Part shown: in pieces, positions 4,220 to 23,526 of the stretch
Layout of the letters: each line of letters starts with the position of its first letter
How positions within the stretch are numbered: the stretch's first letter is position 1
Source of the DNA: a virus
Virus record (IMG/VR): IMGVR_UViG_3300037584_000314
Span: 1-23,526 of that record
Direction: 5' to 3' (one strand)
Length of the DNA stretch: 23,526 bases
The notes under the pieces: generated by a model
Databases searched by the model: none
The model's input: only the letters and a program-made list of their open reading frames with translations
Told to the model about the DNA's origin: nothing
Program-made: the position numbers and the translations under genes

Positions 4220-5281
4220 ATGGCATCAAGTTTTACATCAAGATTAAAATTAGAGAGACAAGCTTCAGGAGAAAACTCTGGAAACTGGGGAAATTTAGTA
4301 AATTATGTTTTTAATAGAGTTGATGCTTCTGTTGCTGGATATCAAGCAGTAAGTGTTGCTGGATCTGCAAATGTTACATTAACATCTAATAACTCTACAA
4401 GTAATACAGATGATGATGCTACTGATGATCAAGTACATAACGCAGTATTAGAATTTACTGGTGCTTTAACTGGAGACATTCATGTATTTACTGATGCAGT
4501 AGAACAACACTATACTGTATTTAATAATACTTCAGGATCACAAACATTAAAATTCGCAAACACTGGTCACGCTGCAAATGCAATTACACTTAAACAAGGT
4601 GCTAAAACAATTGTATATACAAATGGCTCTACGATGTTTGATGTAATGGCAGATTTAGGAGATGTTGCAATGACATCTGTAACTTCATCTGGAAACGTAG
4701 CAGGTACAAATATAAATGGATCTGCAGTTATTTCAACTGGAAATGTTTCTGGAACAAATATGAATGCAACAGCTAATACAATTACTTTAGCTGGTTCTGC
4801 ACCAAATATTGCTTCAACAACAGCTAACTCTGATTTATTATTATCTACAAATGGAGTTGCTGGAAGAGTTACATTTAACGGTGGTGGTAAAATTCAACAA
4901 TTAGCAGAAAAAGCAACTGTATCTGCAACTGCAGCAACTGGAACAGTTAATTTTGATGTTCTTACACAAGCAGTTTTATATTTTACAACTAATGCTTCAG
5001 GTAATTACACTTTAAATATCAGAGGCGATAGTTCGAATGCTTTAAATGCTATTATGGATACTGGTGAATCAATAACAATTGCTCACTTAGTTACACAAGG
5101 TTCATCAGCTTATTATAACAATGCAGTTACTATTGATGGATCAAGTATTACTCCAGAATGGCAAGGTGGTTCTGCACCAGATGCTGGAAACGCAAGTTCA
5201 GTTGATGTTTATTCTTATACAATATTTAAAACTGGAGATGCTTCTTTTACAGTATTCGCTGCTCAAACACAGTTTGCATAA
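4220..5281 (+). CDS. Tail fibre protein
   Basis: This 353-residue protein starts with SSFTSRLKLERQASGENSG followed by NWGNLVNYVFNRVD, the pattern (L+LExxxxGxxxxxWGxxxN) common at the N-terminus of marine phage tail fibres, where it may attach the fibre to the tail. The middle (about 150-240) is a Thr/Asn/Ser-rich low-complexity shaft with repeated GNVxGTNxN phrases (SSGNVAGTNINGSAVIS, then TGNVSGTNMNATA). The C-terminal third is beta-rich and ends DVYSYTIFKTGDASFTVFAA, which resembles fibre C-terminal domains. GGAG (about 4204-4207) lies upstream of ATG in a 58-base A+T-rich gap in which I see no terminator. Receptor specificity is unknown. Confidence 0.7.
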   Translation: MASSFTSRLKLERQASGENSGNWGNLVNYVFNRVDASVAGYQAVSVAGSANVTLTSNNSTSNTDDDATDDQVHNAVLEFTGALTGDIHVFTDAVEQHYTVFNNTSGSQTLKFANTGHAANAITLKQGAKTIVYTNGSTMFDVMADLGDVAMTSVTSSGNVAGTNINGSAVISTGNVSGTNMNATANTITLAGSAPNIASTTANSDLLLSTNGVAGRVTFNGGGKIQQLAEKATVSATAATGTVNFDVLTQAVLYFTTNASGNYTLNIRGDSSNALNAIMDTGESITIAHLVTQGSSAYYNNAVTIDGSSITPEWQGGSAPDAGNASSVDVYSYTIFKTGDASFTVFAAQTQFA

Positions 5282-5349
5282 TATGAATGAGTTTGTTGAA
5301 TTATTATTCAAACTTAAACTTAGAAGAAATAAGGAGAAATAAAAACAGT

Positions 5350-5805
5350 ATGTTATATGTTGCTGCTCAAATTGATGAAAATAATGTTGTAGTTGATGCT
5401 ATTATTGTAGATGAAGCAGATATTTCTGATGAAAATGGTTTAAGTGATTCTATAACAACTTCTTTTGCAAATTCAATAAGACAAACTACAGGTACTTGGA
5501 AATGGGCTGGTATGTATCAAGAAGGTCGAGGTGATGTTAGAAAAATTCAACCAGGTATAGGAGATAATTGGCATGCTGAAACGTCACAATTTTATCAAAA
5601 AAAACCACATGATTCATGGATTCTAGATAGTAATTTAGATTGGAATCCTCCTGTTGCAAAACCAAATAATACTACTAAATGGATTTGGAATGAAGAAAAT
5701 CAATCATGGGAATTACCAGAATCAAATTTTTATACAGGTTCAACATATGACGAAACTTCAGGGGATCCAGATAATGAAGTTTTTTCAGGGAGAATAGGAG
5801 AATAA
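5350..5805 (+). CDS. Small fibre-associated protein, cyanophage-like WxLN/WxxP type
   Basis: The 151-residue protein starts LYVAAQIDENNVVVDAIIV and ends with a tryptophan-rich part: TGTWKWAGMYQEG, KPHDSWILDSNLDWNPP and KWIWNEENQSWELPES. This order (AxIDENNxV start, G.GD region, then PxxSWILD...W.PP...W.W.E....WELP) matches a small protein family seen near tail fibres of marine phages, thought to be structural; the exact role is not known. I chose ATG 5350 because homologues as I recall them begin near MxYVAxIDENN; AAGGAG at 5331-5336 is about 13 bases upstream, which is long. The frame is open back to ATG 5287, so a 172-residue form is possible. Confidence 0.6.
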   Translation: MLYVAAQIDENNVVVDAIIVDEADISDENGLSDSITTSFANSIRQTTGTWKWAGMYQEGRGDVRKIQPGIGDNWHAETSQFYQKKPHDSWILDSNLDWNPPVAKPNNTTKWIWNEENQSWELPESNFYTGSTYDETSGDPDNEVFSGRIGE

Positions 5806-5806
5806 T

Positions 5807-6667
5807 ATGCCATTATTAGGAACAAGAGGAGGAGGATCAGCAAGAGGATTTGGATTTCAAGGAGCTGGTGAAAAATTTATGGTAGCTACAGGTGGATCTA
5901 TATCTACTTCAGGAAGTTTTAAAATACATACATTTACATCATCAGGTACATTCTCTGTAACTCAAGAATATACAAACCCAGGTGATTATCCTGTTGAAGT
6001 TTTAGTTGTCGCTGGAGGCGGCGGCGGAGGTGATGGTGGAGGTAACGGCGGTGCAGGTGGTGCTGGCGGTTATCTTCAAGGAACATTTACAAATTTAACA
6101 GAAGGATCTTATCCTGTTGGTGTCGGTAACGGCGGTAATACTAATAACAATGGTAATTCTAACGGACAAGCAGGTTCACCTTCTACTTTCAACGGAGCTA
6201 CTGCAAATGGCGGTGGATCTGGTGGAGGCGGAGGTCAAGGTGGTGGAACTGGAGGTAACGGCGGCTCAGGCGGAGGCGGAGCAAGAGGAGGGGGCGGTAG
6301 CTCTAACCAAGGTAACTCTGGTGGATTAAGTGGATTCGGTAACTCTGGCGGATCTGGTTCTCCTAATACGAGATCAGGTGGTGGCGGCGGAGCTGGAGGC
6401 GGCGGCGGTCAAATGGGTGGAGGCAGTGGAAAATCATGGCCTGGAAACTCAACTACTTACGCAGGTGGCGGCGGAGGCTCTCACCAAAATGGCGGAGGCG
6501 GTTCTGGTGGTTCTGGTGGCGGAGGCCCTGGATCTTCTGGTGTTGGTGGTTCACCTGGAAACGGTACTAATGGTTTAGGTGGTGGCGCAGGTGGCGCATG
6601 TGATTCACCTAGTGGTTCATCTGGTGGTTCTGGAACAGTAATCATTAAGTATCAATTTCAAAAATAA
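5807..6667 (+). CDS. Glycine-rich tail fibre / receptor-binding protein
   Basis: This 286-residue protein begins MPLLGTRGGGSARGFGFQG, a phrase frequent at the start of marine phage fibre genes. Residues 37-69 (GSFKIHTFTSSGTFSVT, then PVEVLVVAGG) match the beginning of the glycine-rich fibre domain seen in many phage adhesins. From about residue 70 to 277 the sequence is dominated by Gly with Ser, Asn and Ala; the C-terminus GTVIIKYQFQK is a final beta strand. Gly-rich segments of this kind in phage adhesins such as T4-like gp38 pack as polyglycine II helices and carry the host-range loops. GGAG lies just before the ATG. The six oxygenase genes start 41 bases downstream. Confidence 0.78.
   Translation: MPLLGTRGGGSARGFGFQGAGEKFMVATGGSISTSGSFKIHTFTSSGTFSVTQEYTNPGDYPVEVLVVAGGGGGGDGGGNGGAGGAGGYLQGTFTNLTEGSYPVGVGNGGNTNNNGNSNGQAGSPSTFNGATANGGGSGGGGGQGGGTGGNGGSGGGGARGGGGSSNQGNSGGLSGFGNSGGSGSPNTRSGGGGGAGGGGGQMGGGSGKSWPGNSTTYAGGGGGSHQNGGGGSGGSGGGGPGSSGVGGSPGNGTNGLGGGAGGACDSPSGSSGGSGTVIIKYQFQK
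6014..6637 (+). repeat. Glycine-codon-rich low-complexity tract
   Basis: This stretch encodes runs of Gly broken by Ser, Asn, Thr and Ala and contains many GGC/GGA/GGT repeats. It is visibly much richer in G and C than the rest of the window. The tract is in frame throughout and contains no stop codon in the fibre frame. Other open frames inside it are by-products of this composition. Confidence 0.85.
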
Positions 6668-6708: not shown

Positions 6709-7485
6709 ATGGAAAAATTTTTTCAAACTCAATTTGTAGATAATTTTTTTGAAAGTCCTGATGAAATTGTAAAATTTGCTAATACATTAGATTTTACAAT
6801 AGGACCTAAAGGATATTGGCCAGGTTTAAGGACTCAAGGCTTACATTTAATTGATAAAAATTTATTTAATAGTATATTACAAAAAATATTTTCTACATTC
6901 TTTGATTATAGATTTGCTAATGTAACTTGGGATAATGTAGAAATGTATTTTCAAAAAACTTATCCATATGATTTAAAAAATAAAACAAGTACATTAAATA
7001 CAGGAATGATACATCAAGATGGAGATTATCCAATGGTTGGTTTAATTTATCTTACTAAAAATGCTAATATAGAGTCAGGCACATCTATATTTTTTCCAAA
7101 AAAATTTCAAAAAGACTATAAAAAAATAACTTCAGCTTTTGCTAATAGAAAGAAAAAAATATATAAAAAACCTATAGAAAAGCTAACTAAAAAAGATTTA
7201 ATTGAATACGAAAATTTACTTAATGATGTTAATAGTAATTATAACGAATCAGTAAGATTTAACAATATTTATAATAGATTAATAACTTATAATGGAAATG
7301 ATTATCATAAATGTAATTCATTTTATACTGGTCAAAAAGAAAGACTTACTTTAGTTTTTTTTGTAAGACAAATACGAAGCTCTTCCTTTTTTCCAATTCA
7401 AAGAATTAATGCTATTAAAACAAGTTTTAGTAATGATAATACAAAAAACAAATATAATAAAAAAAGAAACGGTAGAAAACATTAA
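6709..7485 (+). CDS. 2OG-Fe(II) oxygenase 1 (DUF6445-like)
   Basis: This 258-residue protein has the signature of a non-haem iron, 2-oxoglutarate-dependent oxygenase of the double-stranded beta-helix fold. The iron-binding HxD is in GMIHQDGDYPMVGLIYLT (His 102, Asp 104), the distal His is likely His 200 in NDYHKCNSFYTG, and Arg 212 in ERLTLVFFV fits the 2-oxoglutarate carboxylate contact. The N-terminal region with FFESPDEIVKFAN and GYWPGLRT is typical of the DUF6445-type group. Between HxD and the distal His lies an unusual highly charged insertion (about 131-190), and the C-terminus after about 230 is a basic tail. Substrate is unknown. First gene of the six-gene oxygenase array; AAGAGAG just before ATG is a weak ribosome site. 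Confidence 0.75.
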   Translation: MEKFFQTQFVDNFFESPDEIVKFANTLDFTIGPKGYWPGLRTQGLHLIDKNLFNSILQKIFSTFFDYRFANVTWDNVEMYFQKTYPYDLKNKTSTLNTGMIHQDGDYPMVGLIYLTKNANIESGTSIFFPKKFQKDYKKITSAFANRKKKIYKKPIEKLTKKDLIEYENLLNDVNSNYNESVRFNNIYNRLITYNGNDYHKCNSFYTGQKERLTLVFFVRQIRSSSFFPIQRINAIKTSFSNDNTKNKYNKKRNGRKH

Positions 7486-8002
7486 CAATATAGTTTCTTC
7501 AGAAATTTTTCCTTGGACTTTATTTAATGAAAGTTATAGTGAAACCAAACATTTAGGAACAGGTTTTGAAGAAAAATTAAATAAAAAATATAAATCTACA
7601 GATACTTTTCAATTAGTACATGTTTTATATAAAGTAAACACTAGACAAAAATCTGTGTATTTTAATGAATTTTATAATTTGTTTCAAGAAATAGTAAATA
7701 AAATGATAAAAAAAGATGTGGAACTTTTAAGAATGAAAGTAAATTTATTATTTAAAAAACAAAATAAAACTATAAATAATTTTCATATAGATGATAATAA
7801 AGATTTAAATTTTAAAACTGCTATTTATTACATAAATAATTCTGATGGAGATACAGTTATTTATAACAATAACAAATTAAAAAAGATTAAACCAGAAGCA
7901 GGAAAAGTATTATTATTTGATGGTGATTTGTATCACGCTTCAAGTAATCCGATTAAAAATAATTTAAGAAAAGTTGTAAATATTAATTTTAGATATGTAT
8001 AA
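7409..8002 (+). CDS. 2OG-Fe(II) oxygenase 2
   Basis: The 197-residue frame encodes a compact oxygenase. The iron site is HID (His 126, Asp 128) in NNFHIDDNKDLNFKTAIYY, the distal His is His 176 in LLFDGDLYHASSNP, and Arg 187 in NNLRKVVNINF is the likely 2-oxoglutarate ligand. The arrangement HxD...AIYYINNSDGDTVIY...FDGxxYHASSxP...RxVxNxNF is that of the 2OG-Fe(II) proteins frequent in T4-like cyanophages. The gene overlaps the previous one. ATG 7433 (residue 9) is an equally good start, shortening the overlap to 53 bases; neither start has a clear ribosome site, so translation probably depends on the upstream gene. Function is likely hydroxylation of an unknown substrate. Confidence 0.75.
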   Translation: MLLKQVLVMIIQKTNIIKKETVENINNIVSSEIFPWTLFNESYSETKHLGTGFEEKLNKKYKSTDTFQLVHVLYKVNTRQKSVYFNEFYNLFQEIVNKMIKKDVELLRMKVNLLFKKQNKTINNFHIDDNKDLNFKTAIYYINNSDGDTVIYNNNKLKKIKPEAGKVLLFDGDLYHASSNPIKNNLRKVVNINFRYV

Positions 8003-8609
8003 ATTTGATTCAGGATTTAACGAACTTAAAATAGACGCATGGTTTCCTACTCTAATAGGTGTATCTTTTTATAAAGATCATAAAAAAGATGCTTCTAGTA
8101 TTATTAAAAATCTAGAAACTGTTAAATCTAAATGTCCTAAATCTACAGGTGAATCTAGCTTTTTTCTTCATTCTTGCCATAAAGATAAAAAATTAAAAAA
8201 TTTAAATTTATGGATTCAAAATAGAGTAAATGAATATACTAATTTTTATGGTTTTCCAAAAAAAGTAAAACCAGTTGAATCATGGTTTCATTGGTATAAA
8301 GAAAATAATCATAATGATACACATGTACATTTAGGAAGAACTATATCTGTTATTTATTATTTACAAAGTGATCCAGAAGATTCAAGAGTTGTTTTTCATT
8401 CTCCAGTACCAGTAGATATGAAAAATCCTTTTAATATTACAGCAAATGATAATAAAGAATACTTACAAAAAGATCATTCTTTTACTGAATGTTTTTACAA
8501 ACCTGTTGAAGGTATGTTATTAATTTTTAGATCATATTTATTACATAAAGTAGAATTAAAAAATAATAAATTGAAAGACAGGATAATTATAAGTTGGGAT
8601 TTAGATTAG
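7995..8609 (+). CDS. 2OG-Fe(II) oxygenase 3 (putative 2OG-FeII_Oxy_5 type)
   Basis: This 204-residue product begins with an IDAWFPTLIG segment (13-22), a start typical of the putative 2OG-Fe(II) oxygenase group named 2OG-FeII_Oxy_5 in Pfam. The core has ESWFHWYKENNHND (95-108) followed by THVHLGRTISVIYYL (109-123). In this group an HxH (His 110, His 112) stands where others have HxD, so metal binding may be altered. The second half has GMLLIFRSYLLHKV (His 184) and DRIIISWDLD with Arg 196 as possible 2-oxoglutarate ligand. Its ATG overlaps the stop of oxygenase 2 and no Shine-Dalgarno is seen. It belongs to the same family as the sixth gene of the array (9789-10448) but is strongly diverged from it. 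Confidence 0.72.
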   Translation: MYKFDSGFNELKIDAWFPTLIGVSFYKDHKKDASSIIKNLETVKSKCPKSTGESSFFLHSCHKDKKLKNLNLWIQNRVNEYTNFYGFPKKVKPVESWFHWYKENNHNDTHVHLGRTISVIYYLQSDPEDSRVVFHSPVPVDMKNPFNITANDNKEYLQKDHSFTECFYKPVEGMLLIFRSYLLHKVELKNNKLKDRIIISWDLD

Positions 8610-9218
8610 ATGTTATATAAAAATGGATATTGGTATTTTAAAAATGCTGTCAATAAATCTTTTTGTAAAAAGATTGAGGGTATTGTAAAAAAGATAAAAC
8701 CAATAAAAGGAACTATATCAGGAATAGATAACCCTAAAAAAGAAAAAGAAAAATTATTTAAAAAAAGAAATTCAGATATAAAATTTTTTTCAGATCAAAC
8801 TATTTATGATGAACTTTTATATTATGTAAGAAAAGCAAATGAATCAGCTAATTGGAACTATGAGTTTGATTGGGTAGAAGAAGCTCAATATACTATATAT
8901 AGAAAAAATCAACACTACGATTGGCATTGTGATCAACCAGATGAAATGTATGAAAGTGATGATAAGAATTTTAATGGTAAGACAAGAAAACTAAGTTGTA
9001 CTTTACTTTTAAATGATACAAGTGAATATGAAGGTGGAGATTTTGAATTTGATTTTAGAAATAATAAGAAAGGTAAGAATATTAGAAAAGTTACAGAATT
9101 AACTAATCAAGGTGATTTAATAGTTTTTCCATCTTATGTATGGCATAGAGTAACACCAGTAACAAAAGGAACTAGAAAAAGTTTAGTATTATGGTATATA
9201 GGACCACCTTTTAAATGA
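8610..9218 (+). CDS. 2OG-Fe(II) oxygenase 4 (PKHD/prolyl 4-hydroxylase type)
   Basis: This is the most canonical member. The 202 residues carry HYDWHCDQP with HxD at His 106 and Asp 108, then KLSCTLLLNDTSEYEGG and DFEFDF (127-149), GDLIVFPSYVWHRVTPV with distal His 179, and GTRKSLVLWYIGPP with Arg 189 as the 2-oxoglutarate contact. The EGGDFEF strand and FPSxxxHRVxPVxxGxRxSLVxW signature identify the PKHD-type hydroxylases related to prolyl 4-hydroxylase catalytic domains (as in PiuC). The reaction would be O2- and 2-oxoglutarate-dependent hydroxylation with succinate and CO2 release; the substrate is unknown. ATG follows directly after the TAG of the previous gene with no gap. All catalytic residues are present. 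Confidence 0.85.
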   Translation: MLYKNGYWYFKNAVNKSFCKKIEGIVKKIKPIKGTISGIDNPKKEKEKLFKKRNSDIKFFSDQTIYDELLYYVRKANESANWNYEFDWVEEAQYTIYRKNQHYDWHCDQPDEMYESDDKNFNGKTRKLSCTLLLNDTSEYEGGDFEFDFRNNKKGKNIRKVTELTNQGDLIVFPSYVWHRVTPVTKGTRKSLVLWYIGPPFK

Positions 9219-9796
9219 GTTTTAAAAAAAATAAATATTTAGTTGTTAGAAAAGCTGTACCAGAAGTAATTGCAAACGTAGCTTATCATTATCTTTTATT
9301 AAAAAGAGAAGTATTTAATAAATGTAATGAAAAAGGATTACAGCTTAATCATTTTGGAACTTATAAAGATAAACAGATACCAAACAGTTATTCTCATTAT
9401 TCTGATATTTTAATGGAAACTTTATTAGCAGAATTAATATCTACAGTAAAAAATAAAACTAAAATTGATGTTATACCTACTTATAGTTATTGTAGGTTGT
9501 ATAAAAAAGGTGATGAATTAATTAAACATAAAGATAGACCTAGTTGTGCTATATCTACAACTTTATTTTTAGGAGGAGATCCTTGGTCTATATATTTAGA
9601 GCCAAATATAAAAGTAGATTTAAAAATAGGAGACATGTTAATTTATGCTGGTTGCGAACTTGAACACTGGAGAAAACCATTTAAAGGTAATGAATGTGCA
9701 CAAGTATTTTTACATTATAATGATTCTAAAAACAAAGATTTTCAATTTGATAAAAGACCAATGTTAGGATTACCAATGGAGTTTAAGCATGCCTAG
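9215..9796 (+). CDS. 2OG-Fe(II) oxygenase-like protein 5
   Basis: The 193-residue protein has the oxygenase layout: TYSYCRLYKKGDELIKHKDR (HxD at His 105, Asp 107), SCAISTTLFLGGDPWSIYL (110-128), then GDMLIYAGCELEHWRKPFKG (distal His 151) and AQVFLHYND. The YxxGxxLxxHxDRxSCxxSxTxxLGG phrase is familiar from phage and cyanobacterial 2OG-Fe(II) proteins. The position where most relatives carry the 2-oxoglutarate-binding Arg (about nine to eleven residues after the distal His) holds Asn, Glu or Cys; Arg 153 or a Lys would have to replace it. Its ATGA overlaps the stop of gene 4. Active enzyme is likely but less sure than gene 4. Confidence 0.72.
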   Translation: MSFKKNKYLVVRKAVPEVIANVAYHYLLLKREVFNKCNEKGLQLNHFGTYKDKQIPNSYSHYSDILMETLLAELISTVKNKTKIDVIPTYSYCRLYKKGDELIKHKDRPSCAISTTLFLGGDPWSIYLEPNIKVDLKIGDMLIYAGCELEHWRKPFKGNECAQVFLHYNDSKNKDFQFDKRPMLGLPMEFKHA

Positions 9797-10448
9797 AAAA
9801 AAGAAACAAATAATACATAACGTACCTCTTCATAAACACCACCATTTATTTGCACATATTGGAGCACATTTTATGATTCCTACATTTGTAACAAAATATA
9901 ATGGTATATCTAATGAATTAAATATTAGAAAAACTAAATATTACAAATCTAAAGGTGGACAAACAATAAATTTACAAAAAGAGCCTTATTTTAAAGAGCT
10001 TGTTAAAAAAATTAAAATATCAGTATTAAGACTTTCTGAACAATATTATAAAGCACGAAAAGGATATAAAGTTGACGTAGTATCTATGTGGTTAAATTCA
10101 AATGAAAAAAATAGATATCATCCTCCTCATAATCATCAGAATACATTTATTAGTGGAGTTATTTGGTTAGATGGAGAAAGAAATGACTATCCATCTTTAA
10201 AACTTTTAAGACCATATGCTTTACCTAATCTTCCTATAATAGAAAATTATAATCAAATAAATAGTAATGTTATTTCTGTCGAAAGCGAAAAAGATAAAAT
10301 TATTTTTTTTCCATCATATTTATATCATTATGTAGATAAAAATTTAAAAGCTAAACCTAGAATATCTATTGCATTTGACACAATTTTAAGAGGCCCTTAT
10401 GGAGAAATAATAAATAATGGCGAAACAGTTGGCCAGTACAAGATATAA
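9789..10448 (+). CDS. 2OG-Fe(II) oxygenase 6 (putative 2OG-FeII_Oxy_5 type)
   Basis: The 219-residue product has a His-rich basic N-terminus (KKKQIIHNVPLHKHHHLF, 4-21), FMIPTFVTKYNG (28-39), and the core VSMWLNSNEKNRYHPPHNHQ followed by NTFISGVIWLDG (98-129). His 114 and His 116 form the HxH seen in this Pfam-like group in place of HxD. DKIIFFPSYLYHYVDKN (His 180) and KPRISIAFDTIL (Arg 191) complete the site. GGAG about eight bases before the ATG makes it one of the few array genes with its own ribosome site. The stop is followed by a 52-base gap before the tail hub gene. Substrate unknown. It closes the array and shares its family with gene 3. Confidence 0.75.
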   Translation: MPRKKKQIIHNVPLHKHHHLFAHIGAHFMIPTFVTKYNGISNELNIRKTKYYKSKGGQTINLQKEPYFKELVKKIKISVLRLSEQYYKARKGYKVDVVSMWLNSNEKNRYHPPHNHQNTFISGVIWLDGERNDYPSLKLLRPYALPNLPIIENYNQINSNVISVESEKDKIIFFPSYLYHYVDKNLKAKPRISIAFDTILRGPYGEIINNGETVGQYKI

Positions 10449-10500: not shown

Positions 10501-12348
10501 ATGCCATTAACTCGATTAAATTTTATACCTGGATTAGATACAGAGAATACCGAAACTGGTGCCGAAGGTAGATGGACAAATTGCGATAAAGTAAGATTTA
10601 GAAAAGGTCTACCTCAAAAAATAGGTGGATGGGAAAAATTCAGTCAAGACTATTATGTTGGAGTAGGTCGAGCTTTACATCAATGGTTTGATAATACTGG
10701 TAATAGATACGAAGGTCTTGGAACAGATAGGAAAGTTTATGTTTATAGATCAGGAGATAATGCTGATATAACTCCTATTAGACAATCAAATGCTTTAACA
10801 ACTGTATTTAATACAACTTCGGGTAGCTCTAATGTTATTGTAAATCATTCTACTCATGGAGCTCAATTAGGAGATTTTATAACTATTTCAAATACAGTAC
10901 CAACAAACATAGGTGGTATTTCTAATACTGCTATGGACGCAGAGTATGAAATTATTGAAATTACTAACGCTGATGCTTATACAATTCAATCTAGTGCAAC
11001 TGCAAATGCTAATGTAACTGCAACTGGTAATTGTAATATATCATATCAAATTTCAGTTGGTCCAGATAAACAAACATTTGGCTTTGGTTGGAATACTGGT
11101 ACATGGAATGCTTTAGCTTGGAATCAACCAAGAACTACGTCTAATGTAACTTTAGATATGAGACAATGGTCTATGAATAATTGGGGAGAAGATTTAATAA
11201 TAACAGCAAGAGATGGATCTACTTATCTCTGGAATACTTCAGATGGTTTAACTGATAATCCTGCTTCAGTAATTTCAAATGCACCTACAACGAGTACATT
11301 ATCAGTAGTGTCAACAGAAACACGACATTTAATTCTTATGGGTACAGAAACTACAATAGGTACACCTTCAACTCAAGATAAAATGTTTATTAGATTTAGT
11401 GATCAAGAAAATTTTAATTCTTTTCAACCTAATGTTACTAACTCAGCTGGTTCTCAAAGAATAGCAGGTGGAAGTGAAATTAGATGTGCTAGACCTGCTA
11501 AAGGTACAATTTTGATATGGACAGATACTACAATGCACTCTATGTCATTTATCGGTCCACCTTTTATTTTTGGATTTAGACAACTTGGTAATGATTGTGG
11601 ATCTGTTGGTATGAACAGTGCTATAGTAGTAGATGATATTGCTTATTGGATGTCAGATGGACAATTTTTTAGATATGCTGGTGCAGTACAAGAAATACCT
11701 TGTAGTGTTTTAAATTATGTATTTAATGATATTAATAAAAATCAGTATAGTCAGGTATATGCAGGTCAAACTTCAAATTTTTCAGAAATAGTATGGTATT
11801 ATTGTTCAAGCAGTTCAGATCAAATAGATAGATATGTTATTTATAATTATTTAGAAAATAGTTGGTATTTTGGTAATTTGCCTAGAAGTACATATCAAGA
11901 TAATGGTGTTGAACTAAATCCTTTAGCTACAGAGTATTTACCTAATGCAACTAACAATACTTATTCTACAATAAACGGATTAACTAAAGGTAGAAGTTTA
12001 ATTTATAGACACGAAGAAGGTGTTGATGCTGATGGTGTAAGTATGACTTCTTTTATTGAATCTGGAGATGGAGATATAGCTGATGGTGAAAATTTTAGTT
12101 TTATAAATAAAGTTATTCCTGATTTTAAAAACCAAACAGGAAATGCTGTAATTACTTTAAGTACCCGGGATTATCCTAATAGTTCTAAAACTCAAGGAGA
12201 AGCAATAACAGTTTCAAATACCACTAATTTTTATAATTCTAGAATAAGAGGAAGACAATCTTCTGTAAAAATAGAAAGTACAGAATTAGGTAGTAATTGG
12301 CGTTTTGGTACATTAAGAATCCAAATTAGACCAGATGGAAAAAGATAA
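10501..12348 (+). CDS. Tail hub / stabilisation protein (P22 gp10-like)
   Basis: This 615-residue protein begins PLTRLNFIPGLDTENTETGA and EGRWTNCDKVRFRKGLPQKI, then GGWEKF, the opening of phage stabilisation proteins that form the hub below the portal and adaptor, closing the capsid. The middle and C-terminal parts show repeating beta strands (for example SVGMNSAIVVDDIAYWMSD; YRYAG-like FRYAGAVQEIPCSVLNYVF; ENSWYFGNLPRSTY), consistent with a propeller-like hub. The end contains RIRGRQSSVKIESTELGSNW and RFGTLRIQIRPDGKR, a conserved C-terminal feature of this class. A WNxGTWNxLAWN cluster (197-208) resembles those in the protein at 3073-4161. No signal or membrane segment. No Shine-Dalgarno precedes ATG. 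Family call from recognised ends and length. Confidence 0.75.
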   Translation: MPLTRLNFIPGLDTENTETGAEGRWTNCDKVRFRKGLPQKIGGWEKFSQDYYVGVGRALHQWFDNTGNRYEGLGTDRKVYVYRSGDNADITPIRQSNALTTVFNTTSGSSNVIVNHSTHGAQLGDFITISNTVPTNIGGISNTAMDAEYEIIEITNADAYTIQSSATANANVTATGNCNISYQISVGPDKQTFGFGWNTGTWNALAWNQPRTTSNVTLDMRQWSMNNWGEDLIITARDGSTYLWNTSDGLTDNPASVISNAPTTSTLSVVSTETRHLILMGTETTIGTPSTQDKMFIRFSDQENFNSFQPNVTNSAGSQRIAGGSEIRCARPAKGTILIWTDTTMHSMSFIGPPFIFGFRQLGNDCGSVGMNSAIVVDDIAYWMSDGQFFRYAGAVQEIPCSVLNYVFNDINKNQYSQVYAGQTSNFSEIVWYYCSSSSDQIDRYVIYNYLENSWYFGNLPRSTYQDNGVELNPLATEYLPNATNNTYSTINGLTKGRSLIYRHEEGVDADGVSMTSFIESGDGDIADGENFSFINKVIPDFKNQTGNAVITLSTRDYPNSSKTQGEAITVSNTTNFYNSRIRGRQSSVKIESTELGSNWRFGTLRIQIRPDGKR

Positions 12349-22472: not shown

Positions 22473-23230
22473 TGAGTGATAAACAAATCGCTAAAAAATC
22501 AAATTCTGAAATTGCAACATTATCAGATGATTTAATTTTAGCAAACGCAGGTAAAGGGTTACAAAATATAAGTAACGATGACGTTACTATACCTAGACTT
22601 GCGATAATACAATCAGGTTCACCTCAACGTAAAAAGAAAGATGAGAAATACATTGATGGAGCTGATGAAGGTATGATATTTAATACTGTTACAAATGAAC
22701 TATACAAAGACAGTTTAGAAGTAATACCTTGTGGATACAGAAAAACCTATGTAGAGTGGGTACCTAGAGATAAAGGTGGCGGACTTGTAGCAGTACATGA
22801 TTACAAGCCTGAAAAAGCTGTAACTGATCCTAAAACTAGAAAAACAATGTTAGGCGAAAATCAAATAGTTGATACAGCAGAACATTTTGTTTTAGTTAAA
22901 ACTGCTGATGGTTATTCACCTGCAGTATTGACAATGACATCTAGTAATCTAGGCGTTTCAAGAAAGTGGAATACACTTCTTAAAATGAAAAGAATAAATG
23001 TCAAAGGTCAAACAGTTGAAGCACCTTCATTTTTATATAAATTTAAATTATCTACAGTCGAAGCAGAGAACGATTTAGGTAATTGGCATAAATATAAAAT
23101 AGAAGAAGCAGGCCAAATTGAAACTAAAGACATTTTCAAAGAGGCAGAAAAATTAGCTGATTCAGTAACAACTGGAAAAGTTAAAGCATCAGAACCAACA
23201 GAAACGTCTGGAGAAGATGCACCATTCTAA
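22472..23230 (+). CDS. Putative single-stranded DNA-binding protein
   Basis: The 252-residue product has an acidic, disordered C-terminus ending SGEDAPF, very like the DDIPF tail of bacterial SSBs, which recruits replication partners. The central part has beta-rich sequence suited to an OB fold (DSLEVIPCGYRKTYVEWVP; EHFVLVKTADGYSPAVLTMT; PSFLYKFKLSTVEAENDLGN). N-terminal residues 1-35 are polar. Neighbours are a primase downstream and an SF2 helicase upstream, which fits replication. The AAAGGAG site (22460-22466) is strong. The OB fold is inferred; a recombination annealing protein is an alternative. Confidence 0.6.
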   Translation: MSDKQIAKKSNSEIATLSDDLILANAGKGLQNISNDDVTIPRLAIIQSGSPQRKKKDEKYIDGADEGMIFNTVTNELYKDSLEVIPCGYRKTYVEWVPRDKGGGLVAVHDYKPEKAVTDPKTRKTMLGENQIVDTAEHFVLVKTADGYSPAVLTMTSSNLGVSRKWNTLLKMKRINVKGQTVEAPSFLYKFKLSTVEAENDLGNWHKYKIEEAGQIETKDIFKEAEKLADSVTTGKVKASEPTETSGEDAPF

Positions 23231-23526
23231 ACTCTTTAGAATATTTCCAGGTCTACATCGGGCTTATGGTCATTTTTTTATTACAGAAAGAAAAGGACCT
23301 AAGCTTGATGGATATGGAAAAACAATAAGAGAAAAGTATGATGAAAGCTTATGGGTAGAACACCTATCTGGTAAAATTGGATTAGGTGTTATACCCATCA
23401 ATGAAGATAATAAATGTAAATGGGGTTGTCTAGATGTAGATGACTATTCTGTAAATATAGAAAAAATTTCAAAACAATTTGTTAAAAAAAATTTAATTGT
23501 ATGTAGATCAAAATCAGGTGGTGCTC
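23217..23526 (+). CDS. Archaeo-eukaryotic-type primase (TOTE-like), N-terminal part
   Basis: The frame starts at ATG 23217, inside the end of the preceding gene, and runs off the right edge after 103 codons. Visible are HRAYGHFFITERKGPKLDGY (14-33), LWVEHLSGKIGLGVIPINED (45-64) and CKWGCLDVDDYSV (67-79), then IVCRSKSGGA at the edge. Asp 73 and Asp 75 form the DxD metal site of the archaeo-eukaryotic primase superfamily, and the whole order (HLxGxxGLGVxPIxEDNxCxWGCxDxDxY) resembles the primase domain of TOTE-type proteins. It would make primers for phage DNA synthesis. Later motifs (sxH and downstream domains) are beyond the window. GGAG (23210-23213) sits shortly before the ATG. Confidence 0.75.
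   Translation, partial: MHHSKLFRIFPGLHRAYGHFFITERKGPKLDGYGKTIREKYDESLWVEHLSGKIGLGVIPINEDNKCKWGCLDVDDYSVNIEKISKQFVKKNLIVCRSKSGGA

Follow-up and report, generated by a model that had tools for sequence, protein, structure and literature searches.

In the window, a 23,526-nucleotide (23.5 kb) virus record from IMG/VR (IMGVR_UViG_3300037584_000314) that carries a P22-like virion block, six successive plus-strand open reading frames (ORFs), g1 to g6, fill positions 6709-10448 between the gene for a glycine-rich protein and that for a gp10-like protein. All six products are 2-oxoglutarate (2OG)-Fe(II)-oxygenase-type proteins. In related phages, arrays of such genes occupy the same slot and adjoin a probable adhesin gene, and by sequence comparison adhesin and array appear to be exchanged together. 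We propose, with a probability of about one half, that the array is a late, adhesin-linked protein-tailoring cassette that would hydroxylate the adhesin or the tail fibre; its substrate, catalytic activity and co-transcription are what we infer.

Oxygenase identity of the six array proteins

All six proteins were searched against Pfam and PHROGs profiles. Pfam matches above cut-off were obtained for g1 (DUF6445, 3.5e-10), g3 (2OG-FeII_Oxy_5, 3.4e-15), g4 (2OG-FeII_Oxy_3, 2e-16) and g6 (2OG-FeII_Oxy_5, 2.4e-17). The g2 match (2OG-FeII_Oxy_3, 9.8e-5) fell below the curated cut-off, and g5 had no Pfam match at E<=1. In PHROGs, g2 matched PHROG 274 (3e-36), g5 PHROG 2954 (1e-47) and g1 PHROG 1644. 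For g1 and g5, AlphaFold2 (AF2) models were built on alignments of homologues taken from fetched relative loci and compared with the PDB using Foldseek. The g5 model (mean predicted local distance difference test score, pLDDT, 96.6) matched P. putida P4H, PHD2 and vCPH with a best E of 1.1e-9, and protein hydroxylases were among the solved folds closest to it; the g1 model (mean pLDDT 78) matched PHD2, OGFOD1 and PiuC with a best E of 3.7e-5. Foldseek probability was 1.0 for both. TM-scores were moderate, ~0.4 for g1 and ~0.6 for g5, indicating fold membership and not close homology. The models place g1 and g5 in the prolyl-hydroxylase fold, and both the predicted folds and the HxD...H ligands resemble those of P. 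putida P4H, PHD2/EGLN and vCPH. However, sequence identity to the prolyl hydroxylases is only about 10-20% and g3 and g6 carry HxH. The resemblance of array products to protein prolyl hydroxylases is at the level of the fold predicted for g1 and g5. Phage 2OG proteins of PHROG 61, the family of g4, have elsewhere been matched to human EGLN3 (PMC12774648). The jelly-roll (double-stranded beta-helix) is thus indicated by AF2 and Foldseek for g1 and g5, by Pfam above cut-off for g3, g4 and g6, and by sub-threshold Pfam and PHROG profiles for g2, for which a sequence search against solved structures returned nothing useful.

Conservation of the metal ligands was counted over 15-139 homologues per family. 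The canonical HxD/E...H triad is present in g1, g2, g4 and g5. In g1 (H102xD104...H200), H/D/H is kept in 15/15 homologues, in g5 in 130/130, and in g4 H/(D,E)/H is kept in 139/139; the g2 family retains the first His in 75/75, D/E in 73/75 and the distal His in 73/75. The triad was not found in g3 and g6, where HxH...H is conserved instead (77/82 and about 84/89 homologues, respectively). An R/K after the distal His, the putative 2OG-binding residue, occurs in 74/75 homologues of g2, 139/139 of g4, 13/15 of g1 and 85/89 of g6; at this column F is commonest in the g3 group, and in g5 no such R/K was present in the range examined. Near-invariance of the ligands across many diverged homologues argues for retained function. 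Both g3 and g6 pass PF13759, 'Putative 2OG-Fe(II) oxygenase', which makes them relatives by homology. The conserved HxH in place of HxD in these two proteins and their homologues raises the question of whether PF13759 proteins may use a three-histidine iron site.

These results largely bear out a sequence-only reading of the window, which had described six adjacent, mostly overlapping and mutually diverged genes with an HxD or HxH iron-site pattern and a distal His. The gene calls hold: four junctions overlap (g1/g2 by 77 nt, or by 53 nt with the alternative g2 start; g2/g3 by 8 nt; g4/g5 by 4 nt; g5/g6 by 8 nt), and g3 and g4 abut without overlap. The subtypes it had named (DUF6445-like, cyanophage-type, PKHD-type and an Oxy_5 pair) agree with the family assignments, the models of g1 and g5 match 2OG oxygenases, and fewer than three of the six lack fold or metal site, with the caveat of HxH in g3 and g6. 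Divergence was likewise confirmed, since pairwise similarity among g1-g6 is not significant (best E 0.04). The six proteins are mutually unalignable, which rules out recent tandem duplication of a single gene.

Several of these families carry database labels that point elsewhere. The PHROG 2954 label would make g5 a ferrochelatase, but no Pfam ferrochelatase match was found at E<=1, the model matches P4H and PHD2, and the ligands are those of an oxygenase. Similarly, g2 falls under 'DNA endonuclease V' (PHROG 274), whereas Pfam at E<=1 gives only 2OG-FeII_Oxy_3, Oxy_5 and PhyH, and g2 homologues keep the oxygenase ligands. The label of g1 is 'minor coat protein' (PHROG 1644). Labels such as these three conceal the length of the arrays. 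We consider the corrected annotation of two families, those of g5 and g2, along with the adhesin adjacency described below, the most solid new results. The 'ferrochelatase' label also looks wrong for PHROG 2954/3531 members of cyanophages and pelagiphages. Separately, g5 and g4 match different parts of the single PHROG 3531 profile (49-167 and 246-361), which suggests that protein fusions exist.

Table 1. Array genes and neighbouring features of the window.
Feature	Position	Strand	Assignment and basis
g1	6709..7485	+	DUF6445-type oxygenase; Pfam, AF2/Foldseek, conserved ligands
g2	7409..8002	+	2OG-FeII_Oxy_3-like; second ATG at 7433 is a possible start
g3	7995..8609	+	2OG-FeII_Oxy_5 with HxH...H; Pfam, ligands
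g4	8610..9218	+	2OG-FeII_Oxy_3, PKHD-type, PHROG 61; Pfam, ligands
g5	9215..9796	+	Protein of predicted prolyl-hydroxylase fold, PHROG 2954; AF2, Foldseek, ligands
g6	9789..10448	+	2OG-FeII_Oxy_5 with HxH...H; Pfam, ligands
fib353	4220..5281	+	Fibre-like virion gene; C-terminus common to window and locus L090
o172	5287..5805	+	Small conserved partner of Gly-rich proteins, PHROG 7759; start probably 5350
glyR	5807..6667	+	Glycine-rich protein, probable fibre-tip adhesin; PF21722 Gly_rich_2 4e-15
gp10-like	10501..12348	+	'Stabilization' protein, PHROG 3287 1.8e-83, annotated relatives; backbone anchor downstream of array

Arrays in related phages and their neighbours

The window belongs to the P22-like marine podoviruses of HTVC023P type; by its gp10-like protein it is closest among named phages to Phage DSL-LC04, 023Pt_psg01 and two pelagiphages, HTVC027P and HTVC023P. 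Hidden Markov models of g1-g6 were run over the ORFs of two sets of relative loci, 80 retrieved by gp10 alone and about 80 by g5 (L-numbers below denote these loci). Among the gp10-fetched loci, 32/34 with a complete slot upstream of the gp10-like gene hold 1-11 oxygenase genes, and 28 of the 34 hold 3-7; the longest uninterrupted arrays comprise 11 genes (L018) and 10 genes (L023). T4-like phages carry comparable runs, about nine genes in S-RSM4 and about five in HTVC008M. Family scans of the array members of L018, L023 and S-RSM4 (32 proteins) found 2OG-type families in most of them (Oxy_5 16, Oxy_3 15, JmjC_2 1, multiple matches per protein being possible). With 3-7 genes usual and up to 11 found, the window is not exceptional but ordinary for its group. 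The array is real, but its uniqueness is not upheld: the earlier view of single members as common and of a run of six as a specialised, expanded module calls for correction.

Other enzymes occur in the arrays of relatives: tryptophan-halogenase-like proteins in 7 loci (a name that rests on similarity to an annotated HTVC008M gene), sulfotransferases in 5, NodU-type carbamoyltransferases in 3, as well as methyltransferases and one JmjC protein. Sulfotransferase, carbamoyltransferase and JmjC matches exceeded the Pfam cut-offs, whereas those to methyltransferases were below them. The halogenase-like genes lie in or beside the arrays of L167 (21755-23158; HTVC008M), L005, L012, L027, L074, L125 and L145.

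Clustering of such genes has been noted before in this phage group, which is reported to outnumber all other known SAR11 phage groups (PMC12753301). Wittmers et al. 2022 (PMC9599517) reported eight non-orthologous 2OG-Fe(II) genes in HTVC023P-type pelagiphages, often near each other and accompanied by 'ferrochelatases'. The phage group is the same, but in that account the genes are nearby and not adjacent, and the ferrochelatase counts as a partner of the oxygenases; in the present loci abutting genes make up runs with as many as 11 members, the protein labelled 'ferrochelatase' is predicted to have the oxygenase fold in its own right, and the run is tied to an adhesin.

This tie was apparent when the flanks were counted, in loci that are mutually related and hence do not represent independent events. 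A Gly-rich ORF or o172 lay within 4 kb to the left in 36/37 g5-fetched arrays and to the right in 4/35; in the gp10-fetched set the figures were 24/28 on the left and 0/44 on the right. The sole left-flank miss among the g5-fetched arrays, L140, arises because its array is inverted, with o172 on the other side. The T4-like phages S-RSM4, S-SSM5, S-CAM8 and HTVC008M share several array families as a run in the fibre region, likewise close to o172 and a Gly-rich protein, although these phages are of another virion type, the cyanophages among them have other hosts, and the genes are annotated in part as endonucleases and ferrochelatase. The same neighbours stand beside single oxygenase genes in DSL-LC04 and ctNMl277.

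In 15/19 stretches from named phages o172 directly follows the Gly-rich ORF, whether or not oxygenases are present, indicating that o172 belongs to the adhesin and that the array is an add-on. A role of o172 as an obligate oxygenase partner or oxygenase substrate is unsupported, since roughly half of the named phages inspected have adhesin and o172 without oxygenases. Phage S16 (gp38) and Pam3 (gp24/gp25; PMC9608196) likewise have a small partner gene next to that of a Gly-rich receptor-binding protein. By analogy to S16 gp38 and Pam3 gp24, glyR is probably an adhesin at the fibre tip. The o172 family, which has a conserved P/W motif, possibly acts as a chaperone, a role suggested here by gene order alone. 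Neither o172 nor glyR matched solved structures by sequence at the limits used.

Further genes were recorded around the arrays and in the window. A family of 167-185 aa without a Pfam match is found in 22 loci (e.g. L105 8343-8888, L162 8549-9052), in several of them placed after o172 and before the array. Judged by eye, the end of the protein looks like the C-terminus of a beta-helix with no obvious metal ligands, and it is possibly a degenerate oxygenase. A conserved family of 103-143 aa comprises 35 ORFs (e.g. L041 4299-4631, L005 8571-8912) and in several loci directly precedes gp10; it was not seen in the window. At 23217-23525 the window ends in a partial ORF cut by the record end that by eye resembles the primase of TOTE-type systems. 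The array is AT-rich relative to its surroundings (GC 0.21-0.26 over 7001-10000, against ~0.27-0.36 in most of the window).

Apparent joint exchange of adhesin and array

Comparison of the window with L090 suggested that adhesin and array can move together. The gp10 proteins of the two are only 37% identical over 444 aa, while values for the fibre C-terminus (69%), o172 (61%), the adhesin (75%) and g1-g6 (56-77%) are higher, and L090 keeps the g1-g6 order with one extra oxygenase gene. A second cassette is shared by L009 and L140 (gp10 29, o172 85, Gly 81, array 82). Conversely, L016, L018, L023, L010 and L029 have backbones close to that of the window (gp10 80-86%) yet different o172 and array genes, and array similarity is <45 in 236/256 pairs with gp10 >78%. 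On this sequence evidence, whole cassettes of adhesin and array recur on distant backbones. The idea of a module gains support and precision, as the array sits with the adhesin and o172 and can move with them; only the claim of exceptional size is lost.

In the full set (n=52), which is biased by having been fetched partly with an array gene, array similarity rose with that of o172 (r 0.32, Mantel p 0.0002) but showed no such relation to that of the backbone (r -0.13). Tracking of the phage backbone by array content is ruled out, r being about 0 or negative.

Proposed function and competing explanations

Under the proposal of adhesin or fibre hydroxylation, each array product would hydroxylate a side chain by means of Fe(II), O2 and 2-oxoglutarate, and the substrates would be residues of adhesin or tail-fibre proteins encoded in the same gene block. 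The phage would carry an adhesin plus enzymes matched to that adhesin, and swapping of such a pair between phages could change or disguise receptor binding. In favour of this proposal are the folds, ligands, constant slot, adhesin adjacency in both virion types, cases of joint exchange and full-set correlation with o172 set out above, the protein hydroxylases among the solved folds closest to g5, the position of the array inside the virion gene block, its overlapping starts and stops, the other tailoring enzymes in the arrays of relatives, and the lack of a terminator-like site between adhesin and gp10-like gene, although the promoter and terminator scan was uninformative, its sites being no more frequent than in shuffles.

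Several observations weigh against it, and some of them also count in favour of the main rival, that the oxygenases are passengers in a recombination hot-spot, riding along with frequent fibre and adhesin exchange while their targets are unrelated host components such as translation factors, defence or other proteins. Because the adhesin adjoins the array, physical linkage alone could give joint exchange, with crossovers in gp10 and in the conserved N-terminal part of the fibre. Adhesin and o172 often occur without oxygenases within ~8 kb, as in Greip, HTVC025P, CRP-207, CRP-143, phiPsal1, Bellamy, Melnitz, zth2-2 and ctn9Y15, and some arrays adjoin a different fibre type, namely in L048, L075, L080, L083 and HTVC027P. 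In the gp10-fetched set (n=29) the correlation of array with o172 is weak (r 0.12, p 0.14). For the rival also speaks a complex of P. putida P4H with EF-Tu among the best Foldseek matches of g5. Nevertheless, two virion types have this neighbour in common, at differing genome positions, and over the 34 complete loci the arrays keep to one slot without scatter; we regard the passenger explanation as unlikely, though it is the strongest competitor.

The Foldseek lists also include the small-molecule oxygenases SnoN, HygX and EctD, a further point against protein hydroxylation that would suit a tailoring of glycans. Here the array, together with sulfotransferase, carbamoyltransferase, methyltransferase and glycosyltransferase genes, would alter a sugar or lipid, either on the host surface (to block superinfection or aid release) or on a virion glycan. 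Sulfotransferases and NodU-type carbamoyltransferases, which usually act on small molecules or sugars, do occur in some arrays. Glycosyltransferases are annotated nearby in HTVC023P and HTVC027P, and the window has a glycosyltransferase-like gene (1184-2002; PHROG 1574/34859) within its virion block. Most arrays, however, that of the window included, lack these extra enzymes (present in 7, 5 and 3 loci), and no sugar-biosynthesis genes were recognised beside the window array; we judge glycan tailoring improbable.

In the literature the genes have been given metabolic roles. Sullivan et al. (PMC3037559) proposed nitrogen signalling and DNA repair; the 2OG and 'ferrochelatase' genes of HTVC023P-type phages have been read as ecologically meaningful auxiliary metabolism (PMC9599517, PMC11561400), and the latter, an ISME J 2024 study, reported that PHROG 61 and PHROG 2954 (as ferrochelatase) are seasonally enriched. 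A role in iron or heme metabolism, 2OG-based nitrogen signalling or DNA repair draws on these proposals and on PMC12753301, where host iron-uptake genes were up in HTVC027P infection. But the heme link depends on the 'ferrochelatase' label, which the predicted fold and ligands of g5 contradict, and draining of 2OG would need no set of many unrelated families. No AlkB or TET/JBP match was found for g1-g6 in Pfam at E<=1, and the array is located in the virion block, away from replication genes. Auxiliary metabolism is in our view very improbable as the function of the array.

Tentatively, and at somewhat less than even odds, we extend the proposal of adhesin decoration to marine phages of two virion types, which would carry exchangeable hydroxylase and tailoring sets that modify the phages' own adhesins post-translationally. 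Receptor binding would thereby be diversified chemically and in combinatorial fashion, atop sequence variation. In the literature searched, which covered few subscription papers, we found no proposal of phage tail-fibre hydroxylation or virion modification, nor a description of such a layer in host recognition. With g5 and g2 as oxygenase-type proteins and the array linked to an adhesin, the heme and nitrogen story is replaced by one that is directly testable. If true, it would add a layer of protein modification to phage host recognition.

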